Shown one piece after another: positions 4,644-35,363 of a stretch of 37,835 bases of DNA. Position 1 is the first letter of the stretch. Every line of letters begins with the position of its first letter. The stretch spans positions 1-37,835 of the forward strand of contig QIFG01000042.1 of the NCBI GenBank assembly GCA_003228735.1, written 5' to 3'. Below the pieces are notes generated by a model. The model was not told the DNA's origin and did not search any database. It saw nothing but the letters and a program-made list of their open reading frames with translations. The DNA comes from Zetaproteobacteria bacterium. GTDB taxonomy: Bacteria > Pseudomonadota > Zetaproteobacteria > Mariprofundales > Mariprofundaceae. Position numbers and translations under genes: made by a program.

Positions 4644-4931
4644 ATGTTTATCGTACTACTTACATTTTCTGGCAACAAAGACCAAGCCAGCCAATTCATG
4701 GAAGGTCACAAAGAATGGATCAAGCGCGGTTTTGATGACGGCGTATTTTTGTTGGTCGGCAGCCTTCAGCCTAATTTGGGCGGTGGGATTGTCGCGCATA
4801 ATACGTCGCTGTCAGGTATTCAAAGCAGGGTGAACGACGATCCGTTTGTAGCGGAAAATGTTGTAAGCGCTGAAATCCTTGAAATTACGCCATCAATAAC
4901 TGATGAACGACTAAAGTTTCTTCTCGGCTGA
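4644..4931 (+). CDS. YciI-like domain protein
   Basis: A 95-aa protein of the YciI/EthD-related dimeric alpha-beta barrel type. It starts MFIVLLTFSGNKDQASQFME and has the usual HKEWIKRGFDDGVFLLVGSL segment. YciI-like proteins are small cytoplasmic proteins with a His/Asp putative active site; their reaction is generally unknown. An SD (AGGAG at 4629-4633) and a 13-nt gap place it in the operon with the ene-reductase and TetR, a common association in detoxification operons. The specific role is unknown. Confidence 0.75.
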   Translation: MFIVLLTFSGNKDQASQFMEGHKEWIKRGFDDGVFLLVGSLQPNLGGGIVAHNTSLSGIQSRVNDDPFVAENVVSAEILEITPSITDERLKFLLG

Positions 4932-4968: not shown

Positions 4969-5580
4969 ATGAGCGCGACGATAGTGGGCCCCGATGGTAA
5001 ATCACGCTGCCACTGGTGCGGTGCCGCACCGGAATTTCTGGCCTACCACGATACCGAGTGGGGCTTTCCAGTTAGCGATGATTCTCGCTTATTTGAGAAA
5101 TTGAGTCTGGAGAGTTTTCAATCCGGACTGAGTTGGCGTACCATCCTTGCTAAGCGCGAGAATTTCCGTGCAGCGTTCCATTTTTTCGATTTCGACAAGG
5201 TAGCGCGTTTCACTCAGAATGACATTGATCGCCTGCTCAAGGACGAAGGTATCGTACGCCATCGTGGCAAGATTGAGGCGGTCATTAACAATGCAAGGCG
5301 GGCTCAGGAAATCGTCAAACAGGAGGGCTCGCTAGCAGCCTTCATCTGGCGTTACGAACCTGATAAGAAGCAGCTTGCAAAACCACAAACCGCATCGACC
5401 TCCGCGGAATCGCTTGCCCTATCGAAGGACCTAAAAAAGCAAGGCTGGAAATTCGTCGGATCGACCACGGCATATGCCTTCATGCAAGCAATGGGGCTAA
5501 TCAACGATCATGTAGAGGACTGCGTTATCAAAACCAAAGTTGAGCACGTGCGCAAAGATTTCAGGCGACCAAGGCGCTGA
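4969..5580 (+). CDS. tag: DNA-3-methyladenine glycosylase I
   Basis: A 203-aa base-excision repair enzyme that removes 3-methyladenine from alkylated DNA. It carries the N-terminal zinc Cys in RCHWCG, then the conserved AYHDTEWGFPV and FEKLSLESFQSGLSWRTIL blocks (residues about 25-70). The C-terminal HVEDC, with the His and Cys zinc ligands, follows near 180. Length is close to the E. coli enzyme (187 aa). It starts 37 nt after the YciI gene, so it may be the last gene of the same transcript. An alkylation-repair enzyme with an electrophile-responsive reductase is a sensible pairing. Its stop lies just before the second copy of the hairpin repeat. Confidence 0.92.
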   Translation: MSATIVGPDGKSRCHWCGAAPEFLAYHDTEWGFPVSDDSRLFEKLSLESFQSGLSWRTILAKRENFRAAFHFFDFDKVARFTQNDIDRLLKDEGIVRHRGKIEAVINNARRAQEIVKQEGSLAAFIWRYEPDKKQLAKPQTASTSAESLALSKDLKKQGWKFVGSTTAYAFMQAMGLINDHVEDCVIKTKVEHVRKDFRRPRR

Positions 5581-31365: not shown

Positions 31366-33234
31366 TTATTGGACCGTATCGTTTCCGAAAAAAGCCTCTA
31401 TATCACCCATATGGCTGGAAACCGGCGCCGGCGGCAGGTTATGCACAACCTCGCGGCCATAACTCCGGCTGTAGATGCGTGAATCCAGCAGCGCCATGAT
31501 GCCGCGGTCGCTGCCCATACGGATCAATCGCCCCATACCCTGCCGCAGCACGGCGATGGCCTCGGGCAACTGGATGTCACGGAAGCCGTTGCCGCCGGCC
31601 TCTTCGCACGATTTGATGCGTGCCTTGAGCAGCGGACTGTCGGGTGGTGCAAACGGCAGCTTGTCGATAATGACGATGGATAATGCCTCGCCGGGCACGT
31701 CCACGCCCTCCCAAAAGCTTCGTGTTCCACATAAGACAGAGTGCGTATCTTCCCGGAATTTCGAAAGAATCGAATCGTTACTGCCGCTCTTCCCCTGCTG
31801 CAAAACGGGCCAGGGCAGCTTTTCTGCCAGCAGCGGCGCTACGGCCTTGAGCAGCTGATGCGTGGTGAACAGCACAAACCCCCGGCCGTTGGAGGCGGTC
31901 AACAGCGCCTCGATCTCGGCCACTATCCTGTCCGTATAATCATTTTTGCCCGGCACCGGTAGATGGCGCGGCAGATAGAGCATGGCCTGCCTACTGTAAT
32001 CGAACGGCGAGCCATGGAAGCTTTCTTTGGCATCAGTAAGCCCCAGCCGCCCATTGATGTATTTAAAGCTGCCTGAGATGCGCAGGGTTGCCGACAGCAG
32101 GATAAACGAGGCCGGTCTTTGCCAAAGATGCGTATCAAGCACAGGGCCGGTCTCCACAGGCGCCAGAATATGGCGTTTGTACTCCCCTGCCCCGTCTGTC
32201 CAGTTCACATGTCCTGGCGGCGGATCAACGATGGCTTCGATATTTTCACCGATCAGCGTCGCCCGTCCGGACAGCTTGAACAACTCCTCGTTTCGCTCGC
32301 TGCGACTCTCAGCCAGAGACATCATCGGTTGCCAGGATTCGAGCAATAGAGCCAGCTCAGGCTTGGCCCAGGCGTCCAATACCTTTCTGAATTGCGCCGT
32401 CAGCTCTCCCTTCAGTGCTGGCTCATCGCCCAAATCATCGAGCACAGTCTGCATATCGTTGAACCACTGGATCAGGCGCATTCGCCCGAGTTGCAGACCG
32501 AAGTGCTGGCTGGCCAGCTCAGGCAGTGCATGCGCTTCATCGAGTATATATGCGTCGAAATCCGGCAGCACCTCGCCAAAGTCACCGCTTTTAAGGGCTG
32601 CGTCGGCCAATAGCAGACTGTGATTGCTGACGACGATGTCCGCCTCCTGCGCTCTTGAGCGGGCGCGCATCAGCGGGCAACGACTCCAGTCCGGGCATTT
32701 AGAGCCAAGGCACTGCTCGGCCGTGGCCGTTACCAGCGGGGCAATGCCGACCTCGAAGATATCGAAACCAAGCCCGGAAAGGTCGCCATCGGTGCTCGTC
32801 TCCGCCCATTCGTGAACTTCGAGCAGCGGTTTGACAGCGTGAGCATCAAGCCGGTGATCCTGCAATTTGTTTCGCAGCCGGAGCGGACACAGGTAATTGG
32901 CGCGCCCCTTGAGCAGCGCAATGCGCCGCTTGCGCCCCAGGGCCTTTTGTACGGCCGGAATATCGCGGAAAACAAGCTGATCCTGCAACGCTTTCGTGTG
33001 GGTCGAGATCAACACCTTGATGCCGCATCTTAAGGCTGGCACCAGATACGCCAGCGTCTTGCCGGTGCCCGTTTCGGCCTCGGCCAGCAGCCGGCTGCCC
33101 GAATCCAGAGATTCGGCAATCTCGCCGGAAAGGGCTGCCTGTTCGGGACGAACCCCATAGCCCGGCATATTCTGATCGAGCGATCCGCCCGGTTCGAAAT
33201 CCCCAGTAATCTGTTCGGAAAAAGATGTGCTCAA
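31366..33234 (-). CDS. ATP-dependent DNA helicase of the DinG/YoaA (XPD-like) family
   Basis: A 622-aa superfamily 2 5'-3' helicase. Walker A is LLAEAETGTGKTLAYLVPAL near residue 52. Iron-sulfur cluster cysteines: Cys in NYLCPLRL, then CLGSKCPDWSRCPLMRARSR near 180-195. The DEAH box is AYILDEAHALPE near 235. C-terminal motifs are FVLFTTHQLLKAVAPLL near 430, LCGTRSFWEGVDVPG near 490 and MGRLIRMGSDRGIMALLDSR near 570. Size and layout fit YoaA or short DinG; I cannot decide between them. Likely role: resolving R-loops or replication damage. ATG 33234; no close upstream partner. Confidence 0.9.
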   Translation of the reverse strand: MSTSFSEQITGDFEPGGSLDQNMPGYGVRPEQAALSGEIAESLDSGSRLLAEAETGTGKTLAYLVPALRCGIKVLISTHTKALQDQLVFRDIPAVQKALGRKRRIALLKGRANYLCPLRLRNKLQDHRLDAHAVKPLLEVHEWAETSTDGDLSGLGFDIFEVGIAPLVTATAEQCLGSKCPDWSRCPLMRARSRAQEADIVVSNHSLLLADAALKSGDFGEVLPDFDAYILDEAHALPELASQHFGLQLGRMRLIQWFNDMQTVLDDLGDEPALKGELTAQFRKVLDAWAKPELALLLESWQPMMSLAESRSERNEELFKLSGRATLIGENIEAIVDPPPGHVNWTDGAGEYKRHILAPVETGPVLDTHLWQRPASFILLSATLRISGSFKYINGRLGLTDAKESFHGSPFDYSRQAMLYLPRHLPVPGKNDYTDRIVAEIEALLTASNGRGFVLFTTHQLLKAVAPLLAEKLPWPVLQQGKSGSNDSILSKFREDTHSVLCGTRSFWEGVDVPGEALSIVIIDKLPFAPPDSPLLKARIKSCEEAGGNGFRDIQLPEAIAVLRQGMGRLIRMGSDRGIMALLDSRIYSRSYGREVVHNLPPAPVSSHMGDIEAFFGNDTVQ

Positions 33235-33612
33235 AAGCTACCAACCATATTGACGCGAAACCTGAATCGGGACACTGTTTCTCCATTCCATGTTTGCAGT
33301 TTAATCTGGAATATGGATAAACCAATGTCCACCTATGGGAGAAGAATTTTTCCAGTGGAGTTAAGATGACAATAACGCAACCACATAAGCTTGGCCCCAG
33401 CATGTTCAAGCAGGTCGCTTAAGGGGATGGCAATGCGCGAAACAAGACCTGGCCCCTCTCCGTGCTTGCATGGCCCCTCTCCGTGCTTGCAGGCCGGTTA
33501 GCTCTACGTTAGACGGGAACATACAGACATACAACTGTATGCCCTTCTCGCAGGTTATCGCCAATGCCGTTAGATTTATAAACCGATATCTATCAGATAG
33601 GAGCGTTCAGAA
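33235..33612. other. Intergenic accessory region with tandem repeat and attC-like half site
   Basis: A 378-bp stretch without a recognised gene. A tiny frame, 33366-33422 (MTITQPHKLGPSMFKQVA), is not identifiable. A 21-bp tandem repeat lies at 33450-33491. GTTAGAC at 33508-33514 fits the integron core GTTRRRY and ends a block GGTTAGCTCTACGTTAGAC, but the matching left arm is missing. A second GTTRRRY (GTTAGAT) is at 33569-33575. A hairpin CATACA-N10-TGTATG sits at about 33521-33542. SD AGGAG at 33599-33603 belongs to the following gene. Confidence 0.35.
33450..33491. repeat. Perfect 21-bp tandem duplication
   Basis: The unit at 33450-33470, starting TGGCCCCTCTCCG, is repeated exactly at 33471-33491. 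Two units only. Probably replication slippage in the accessory region before the channel-like gene. Confidence 0.85.
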
Positions 33613-34110
33613 TTGACAAAGAAGAATAAACGCCTATCAAGGGGAAGTAGAAAGTTCATCCGAGATATTGTTGCGCATACTCCGATCCTGAAGTTGACCT
33701 TTTTATTAGGCATTTCATGGATGCTTTTTGCTGCTGGGTTGTATTTTTCTGAACGTGGAGCAGACGGCACAACGATAACGTCATACGGAAAAGCCTTGTA
33801 TTGGGGTATAGCGGCTTTTTCCACTGCTGGCATTGCTGATATGCCCGTAAATGGAATATCGGAATTAATTGGTGCGATATGGATCGTCCTCGGATCTATG
33901 CTCTTCTTTGGTGCAATTGTTGCTACGATCACTGCGTACTTTATGCGTCCATTGCATCGCCCATCAAAGCAAATTATAGATACTATTGAATACAACCTTG
34001 AACAACTTGATGATTTGTCCATAGAAGAGCTGGAACTTCTCAAAGAGACAACCGATTCCCTCATAGAACACGTGGAACGTTTGAAAACAGCGGAAAAAGA
34101 GAAGCGATAG
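33613..34110 (+). CDS. Two-TM channel-like membrane protein with altered selectivity filter
   Basis: A 165-aa protein resembling the pore domain of potassium channels (Ion_trans_2). TM1 lies at residues about 25-47 (LKLTFLLGISWMLFAAGLYF), the pore helix and filter at about 60-80 (ALYWGIAAFSTAGIADMPVN), and TM2 at about 83-110. The canonical filter TVGYGD is replaced by TAGIAD (T71-D76), so potassium selectivity is unlikely. A C-terminal helix (about 118-160, rich in E/L/K) is predicted to be a coiled coil. The start is TTG 33613 with AGGAG at 33599-33603. It lies between an attC-like half site and a full attC-like hairpin and may be a gene cassette. Base composition is more AT-rich than its neighbours, consistent with transfer. 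Confidence 0.7.
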   Translation: MTKKNKRLSRGSRKFIRDIVAHTPILKLTFLLGISWMLFAAGLYFSERGADGTTITSYGKALYWGIAAFSTAGIADMPVNGISELIGAIWIVLGSMLFFGAIVATITAYFMRPLHRPSKQIIDTIEYNLEQLDDLSIEELELLKETTDSLIEHVERLKTAEKEKR

Positions 34111-34185
34111 GTTCCAAGATTACGGATAACGTGAGATAAAGTTACTGTTGCAAGTTGCTAATAGCGATACAAATAAAAAAGTAAA

Positions 34186-34287
34186 TCTAACAAGGCAAAT
34201 CCAGCCGCCCACAAAAGTGGAGCACCTCCTCAGTTTTATTCAAGGCCATACAGCCGCTTTTGTGGGCGGCTGATTTACGGCGCTAGA
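34186..34287 (+). other. attC-like recombination site (integron cassette boundary)
   Basis: The 102-bp segment begins TCTAACAA (R'' RYYYAAC) and ends CGCTAGA (R', one base off GTTAGA). Between them are perfect complementary arms of 15 bp: AGCCGCCCACAAAAG (34203-34217) and CTTTTGTGGGCGGCT (34257-34271). Pairing continues outward through AAATC/GATTT with one unpaired C at 34202, like the extrahelical base of attC sites. It sits 75 bp after the stop of the channel-like gene and 8 bp before the next frame's start, as cassette sites do. The imperfect R' core makes this tentative; a terminator or small MITE is the alternative. Confidence 0.5.
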
Positions 34288-34295
34288 AGGAAAAT

Positions 34296-34373
34296 ATGGC
34301 AATCAATGAGTTTGAAGAAAAACGGTGTGAAAGGTTTGTCGTACAATTCATGGCCAAACACAGGCCGGGATAA
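34296..34373 (+). pseudogene. Truncated start of a DUF3024-like cassette gene
   Basis: A 25-codon frame: MAINEFEEKRCERFVVQFMA then KHRPG and a TAA. The pattern MA..EFE.KRCE..V..F..K.RP matches the N terminus of DUF3024 proteins, a small family often found in integron cassettes. After RP the family continues for about 90 more residues, which are absent here. It begins 8 bp after the attC-like site, with AGAAGGAA just before the ATG. The match is from memory of the family pattern, not a search. Confidence 0.45.
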
Positions 34374-34406: not shown

Positions 34407-35363
34407 TCAGCAACAGGGGTGCAGGCAGGCATAGCCGTGCATTTCTCCGATTAGCTCTCCGTTAAAGCTTTCGCAGTCTTGCCGGGCACACTTGCAGCGC
34501 AGGCGATAGGCGCAGCCGGTATCGCATACATCTTCAGCCGGTTCCGGAATCCCGGCGGAAGACTTGCGGCGCTCATCCGGGTGCGAGATCGGCCTGGCTG
34601 CCAGCAGCGCCTTCGTATACGGGTGCATCGGACTGGCAAAGACCTCCGCAGCACTTCCCTTCTCGACAATGCGGCCGGCAAACATGACGGCGACGCGGTC
34701 GGCGACCTGGTGTATGACCGACAGATCGTGCGAGATAAACAGATAGGACAGGCTGTGCTCAGACTGCAATTTCTTCAGCAGGTTCAGGATCTGGGCTTGT
34801 ACGGAGACATCCAGGGCCGATACCGGCTCGTCGAGCACAAGCACCTTCGGCGAGATGGCCAGGGCGCGCGCAATGCCGATGCGCTGGCGCTGGCCACCGG
34901 AAAACTGGTGCGGATAGCGGCTGAGTGTCTCCTCGCCCATGCCGCAGTCGCTCAAAACCTCGGCCACACGCTGCCTGAGTGCTGCTTTGCCCATTTCGGG
35001 TGCATGCACCTTCAGGCCCTCGGCCACGGTTTCCTCAACCCGCATACGCGGGTTCAATGAGGCGAACGGGTCCTGGAACACCATCTGGATATGCCGCCGC
35101 ATCGGGATCATGTCGTGGCCGGAAAGCGTGGTGATGTCGCGGCCCAGCAGTTCGATACGCCCGGCGTCCGCATCGATCATGCGCATGGCAAGCCTTGCCG
35201 CCGTTGATTTACCGCTGCCCGATTCGCCGACGATCGCCAGCGTTTCGCCCTCATTGACCTCAAAGCTGACGTCATTGACGGCGTGCACCTCGGCGCCATC
35301 GGCGCTCCACAGGCCGCTACGCTTAAAGCGCTTGTGCAGCCCTTCGACCGAGAGAACGCTCAA
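34407..35363 (-). CDS. oppF: Oligopeptide ABC transporter ATP-binding protein, OppF-like
   Basis: A 318-aa ABC ATPase. Walker A: LAIVGESGSGKSTAARLAMR near residue 42; Q-loop: IQMVFQDPFASLNPRM near 92; signature: PHQFSGGQRQRIGIARALAI near 152; Walker B: VLVLDEPVSALDVS near 178; switch His: LFISHDLSVIHQVADR near 210. The C-terminal oligopeptide domain (MHPYTKALLAA and a Cys-rich tail ending CARQDC, CLHPCC) is the OppF type. It overlaps oppD by 4 nt. It would hydrolyse ATP for OppBC, which are encoded 27 kb away in the same window and orientation. Confidence 0.93.
   Translation of the reverse strand: MSVLSVEGLHKRFKRSGLWSADGAEVHAVNDVSFEVNEGETLAIVGESGSGKSTAARLAMRMIDADAGRIELLGRDITTLSGHDMIPMRRHIQMVFQDPFASLNPRMRVEETVAEGLKVHAPEMGKAALRQRVAEVLSDCGMGEETLSRYPHQFSGGQRQRIGIARALAISPKVLVLDEPVSALDVSVQAQILNLLKKLQSEHSLSYLFISHDLSVIHQVADRVAVMFAGRIVEKGSAAEVFASPMHPYTKALLAARPISHPDERRKSSAGIPEPAEDVCDTGCAYRLRCKCARQDCESFNGELIGEMHGYACLHPCC

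Follow-up and report, generated by a model that had tools for sequence, protein, structure and literature searches.

Sedentary chromosomal integrons combine an integrase gene (intI), an attI site and an array of attC-borne cassettes, and recombination through the bottom strand is the rule for attC sites (PMC2727003). Groups of two or more close attC sites without intI pass the threshold for a CALIN, a cluster of attC sites lacking an integron-integrase (PMC12444791). Inactivated forms are also on record: in Xanthomonas, the intI gene beside ilvD was repeatedly deleted or truncated, leaving inactivated integrons (PMC12444791), and pseudogenes made up almost a third of the intI genes in one survey (PMC2426708).

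We analysed a window of 37,835 nucleotides (the whole stretch of DNA under study, from a Zetaproteobacteria bacterium) in which 1.17 kb between yoaA and an ABC transporter gene most probably represent a decayed chromosomal integron, with the integrase deleted and one channel cassette left; we put the probability of this reading at about 0.92. Like a sedentary chromosomal integron, the window has a divergent intI start, an attI and attC cassettes in the same orientation, and it shares sequence homology with intact integrons of the same family at the intI start and attI. Unlike such an integron, it retains about 9 codons of intI and one full attC, whose core is mutated. The locus resembles a CALIN in that it holds an attC-borne cassette with no complete integrase nearby; however, it has one full attC and a right half where a CALIN needs two attCs, and it has an intI stub and an attI in addition. 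With the inactivated integrons of Xanthomonas (PMC12444791) and the surveyed intI pseudogenes (PMC2426708) it shares the loss of intI in place, the persistence of cassettes and a fixed chromosomal neighbour, whereas it differs from them in its lineage, its position at a yoaA-ABC junction, its more extreme deletion and its array, which is almost gone. The integron of the window is well supported and ordinary in kind, such decay being already documented in other bacteria.

The yoaA-ABC junction and the integrase remnant

In the window, 1172 bp separate yoaA from the oligopeptide ABC ATPase gene (Table 1). Orthologues of yoaA are present in 67 of the 74 same-family genomes, and in relatives the gene is an operon partner of the ABC ATPase gene. 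The junction between the two is uninterrupted in all 23 genomes of the family in which the pair could be located, with a gap of -11 to 180 bp and a median of -7, that is, an overlap (six more loci had no usable pair). The insert matches a decayed integron from end to end, consisting, from left to right, of an intI stub, attI, the remnant of a first cassette invaded by a repeat, the K+-channel-like cassette, an attC and a DUF3024 stub. These parts follow the divergent order that is canonical for intI, attI and cassettes. We also considered whether yoaA is a conserved integron site throughout the family and rejected this, as intI and yoaA matches lie on separate contigs in the relatives and their junction is uninterrupted.

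Table 1. Features of the yoaA-ABC junction (window coordinates)
Feature	Position	Strand	Description
yoaA/DinG-type helicase gene	31366..33234	-	Conserved left neighbour; Pfam Helicase_C_2, E=1.8e-40
intI stub	33234..33275	-	Starts with GTG; about 9 codons (VSRFRFRVN), divergent MVGSF, stop overlapping yoaA start
intI ribosome-binding and attI region	33276..33361		attI-like core GTTAAGA, putatively at 33360
Cassette 1 remnant	33362..33508	+	No gene; holds REP/transposase-associated sequence 33423-33457
attC right half	33491..33514	+	L' GGCCGGTTAGC, spacer, R' GTTAGAC at 33508; left half lost
Cassette 2 (774 bp)	33509..34282	+	Lies between the GTTAGAC core (33508) and R' (34282)
K+-channel-like gene (165 aa)	33613..34110	+	Putative 2-TM pore, filter-like STAGIAD, C-terminal helical segment
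attC site	34185..34288	+	R'' ATCTAAC, L'' AAAT-C-CAGCCG, L' CGGCTG-ATTT, R' GCTAGAA; from R2 model and folds
Cassette 3 stub	34283..34372	+	First 25 codons of DUF3024 gene (34296-34370) and stop
Oligopeptide ABC ATPase gene	34407..35363	-	Conserved right neighbour; ABC_tran, E=1.8e-34; oligo_HPY

Over 68 bp, positions 33249-33316 share 82-84% identity with the intI start and attI region of two intI-bearing loci of the same family (G012:C137 and G016:C33, E of 3e-14 and 4e-12), and positions 33267-33316 are 88% identical to another contig of the same genome, C54; an attI region thus lies next to the intI start, with 82-88% DNA identity to the relatives and to C54. On the minus strand, the window has LQTWNGETVSRFRFRVN where an intact IntI has LQTRNGETVSRFKPRVN, and the two then diverge. 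A tblastn search with the intact IntI of G016 gave 82% over 17 aa at 33299-33249, with a protein-level E of 0.014, and as this stretch is so short, the case for an intI stub is made mainly by the DNA match. Taken together, the DNA match over the intI start and attI and the residual IntI reading on the minus strand indicate that a deletion in place took out intI between about codon 10 and the start of yoaA. The exact recombination point of attI and its core are putative, the core not being exactly recognisable.

The initial annotation had described these cassettes as an orphan attC array of an integron without an integrase. The attC, together with an assembly that contains no full-length intI, agrees with a cassette that has no integrase, with the reservation that an intI stub remains. 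The orphan array did not hold: the intI start and attI are still in place at 33249-33361, and the one full attC falls below the CALIN threshold. These remains, to the left of the span then flagged, had gone unnoticed, as had the GCT right core of the attC and the reduction of the upstream attC to a right half. Because the intI start and attI are present, the whole integron appears to have decayed in place, rather than its cassettes having become detached from their platform.

The attC site and its cassettes

Sites of the attC type are recognised by an inverted repeat of R''/R' and L''/L' boxes, with cores RYYYAAC and GTTRRRY, by one or several extrahelical bases and by folding of the bottom strand. 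The hairpin beyond the channel-like gene has these boxes with a single core deviation (GCTAGAA for GTTAGAA), an extrahelical base and bottom-strand folding. Its left arm runs from R'' through a spacer (AAGGC), L'' AAAT, the extrahelical C and CAGCCG into a long stem and loop, and its right arm from L' (CGGCTG ATTT) through the spacer ACGGC to R' at 34282. The hairpin had initially been placed at 34186-34287, within one base of the covariance-model match given below, and its extrahelical base, the C between AAAT and CAGCCG, had been seen; the left core, then given as TCTAACA, is indeed a core box, read one base off from ATCTAAC at 34185.

Neither of the two covariance models that we used contains the window attC. 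R1 was seeded with 17 attCs from intI-bearing loci of other genomes and recovers long one-orientation arrays beside intI, while R2 was built from 116 R1 matches, including attCs from three other contigs of the same genome. The broader R2 was needed because the window site had escaped both an initial strict pattern scan and the narrow R1. Run on the window with filters off, R2 matches 34185-34288 with 26.8 bits and an E-value of 1.9e-4 over the full model length (1-70); no other match in the window is significant, the second-best having an E-value of 2.2. Over the whole genome the site ranks fifth (E=0.009), below four clear attCs (C59:679, C18:391, C54:814 and C54:1693). Rfam has no relevant family at the hairpin site. 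On either strand the hairpin folds better than any of 200 dinucleotide shuffles (z=-4.4 and -4.5), and the R boxes pair in the minimum free energy structure of the bottom strand and are unpaired in that of the top strand. Both arms resemble those of two attCs of the same genome, C59:1871 and C55:10983; 28 of 40 arm positions match the C55 site, and not one of 75,444 alternative placements across the window attains this number. The 34185-34288 hairpin is a genuine attC.

Is this attC still a site of recombination? The GTT that has become GCT in its right core is invariant in all 17 seed attCs of the R1 alignment and, judging from this substitution, the site is probably dead.

The first cassette has no gene left, and its attC is present as a right half, laid out like the right arm of the C55 attC (GCCGGTTATTTGCGACGTTAAC), with no recognisable left half. 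The GTTAGAC core reported at 33508 is present there. The REP/transposase-associated sequence at 33423-33457 has dispersed copies in this and other genomes of the family and flanks a small transposase gene in relatives. Such repeats have ends (GGGGTCAGGTCTTG.. or GGGGACAGTGTACTT..) that directly adjoin attC halves in the window (33423-33514), in C18 of the same genome (1221-1298; L144:1278) and in genome G007 (L071:4700-4781, at 4760); at a further locus, L072, a repeat end adjoins attC-like sequence on the minus strand at 1796. The arrangement looks as though these elements had inserted into attC hairpins. It is a rather doubtful proposition that REP/RAYT-type elements preferentially enter attC hairpins and drive integron decay in the family.

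The channel-like open reading frame of the second cassette is real, with a match to Pfam Ion_trans (E=6e-6) and PDB profile matches to K+ channels (Shaker and KcsA; lowest E 4e-11). Where 2-TM K+ pores have a filter of the TxGxGD type, the protein and most of its homologues read TAGIAD. The homologues (n=34) are mostly from gammaproteobacteria, and R2 found an attC near none of the 34 loci. As most homologues are found outside attC contexts, the idea that this is a habitual cassette gene was ruled out. Directly after the stop codon of one homologue from another MAG (L041, 81% identical), a hairpin at 5462-5540 has arms like those of the window attC (AACAAGGCAAATACAGC..GCTGATTTAC); it is unscored by R2, has no recognisable core boxes and is perhaps an older attC fossil.

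The truncated DUF3024-like gene, correctly reported 8 bp beyond the hairpin, starts at 34296. Its product shares 63% identity over 24 aa with the DUF3024 protein of a related genome (G075:C59), where the full gene sits right behind an attC-like hairpin. An HMM search for DUF3024 in the genome of the window gave no match; the stub is supported by direct comparison.

Integrons elsewhere in the genome and family

A complete integron would have an intact intI with the IntI-specific patch, and the window holds only the stub. No intI passes the TIGR02249 cut-off anywhere in the assembly, where the only matches are Xer-like: the best match pairs fall on about 5-190 and 238-306 of the profile and skip a stretch at about 183-238, as would be expected of Xer recombinases. 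The assembly is a draft of 100 contigs with a completeness of 95.6%, and several attC arrays finish at contig ends, so an intI may lie elsewhere in the genome or be unassembled.

The genome has attCs on C9, C11, C18, C54, C55 and C59, that is, on five contigs besides that of the window. C55:10983 and C59:1871 are weaker sites of the same layout (arms AACAAGGCAAAT..ATTTGCGACGTTA), and C11:17684 is a further candidate. The attCs of C59, C18, C55 and C11 are accompanied by cassette-type genes, including HicA/HicB-like ones on C59, and lie beside core genes (for example mfd, a DEAD-box helicase gene and hflK/hflC), several of these arrays being at contig ends. Positions 1-1754 of C54 hold a second integron remnant, in which attI carries an intI stub about three codons long; the stub continues into an IS605-like end sequence, and several cassettes and two attCs follow.

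Among same-family genomes, 25 have an intI over the cut-off, and R1 finds attCs in 38 of 74. Six of them (G012, G005, G024, G032, G063 and G015) have two or three intI matches each, some of them partial; multiple integrons per genome seem common in the family.

Alternative readings and course of decay

The hairpin could be taken for an ordinary transcription terminator, or a chance inverted repeat, with the integron features coincidental. Its perfect long stem loosely fits a terminator, and both the left core first reported one base off and the failure of R1 to detect the site would be in keeping with this. However, no poly-T tract follows the hairpin, it is flanked by an intI stub, attI and a DUF3024 stub, and it is the one significant R2 match of the window; this match, the homology of the intI start and attI, and arms that agree with attCs of the same genome, unlike any other placement in the window, are the main grounds on which we regard a terminator as extremely improbable. 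Alternatively, single cassettes may have been inserted in trans at a secondary, attG-like site where no integron ever stood. Insertion at attG sites has been described (PMC12444791, PMC12901181) and other attCs are present on several contigs of the genome, but a secondary insertion would not bring along an intI start and attI, which are found here in canonical place and orientation, and we hold such an origin to be very unlikely.

The cassette might also still be mobile, excised and moved by another, intact IntI present in the cell or the population. The pairing of the R boxes in the bottom strand survives, the core change amounting to a G-T wobble, and the assembly is incomplete, with arrays running to contig ends. 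Against this stand the genome-wide lack of an intI over the cut-off and the change of a GTT that the seed attCs never vary, which make continued mobility unlikely.

The decayed chromosomal integron that we favour probably arose through the following steps, in an order that we infer. An integron, with intI on the minus strand, attI and cassettes running to the right, would have become established at the ABC-yoaA junction, and its IntI would have captured cassettes by recombining bottom-strand attC hairpins with attI. Later, intI was deleted between about codon 10 and the position just before yoaA. Cassette 1 lost its gene and half of its attC, where the REP/transposase-associated sequence now sits, the DUF3024 cassette was truncated, and the attC core changed from GTT to GCT. 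The remainder is one intact gene, encoding the K+-channel-like protein, fixed in place.

The locus extends the in-place loss of the integrase from a chromosomal integron to a further lineage. The surviving cassette would represent the capture, as a cassette, of a K+-channel-like gene that elsewhere is mostly found outside attC contexts. An 'orphan' attC can conceal an intI/attI stub too short for protein-level annotation, and it is therefore advisable to compare scattered attCs, at the DNA level, with the local intI/attI before classing them as detached.
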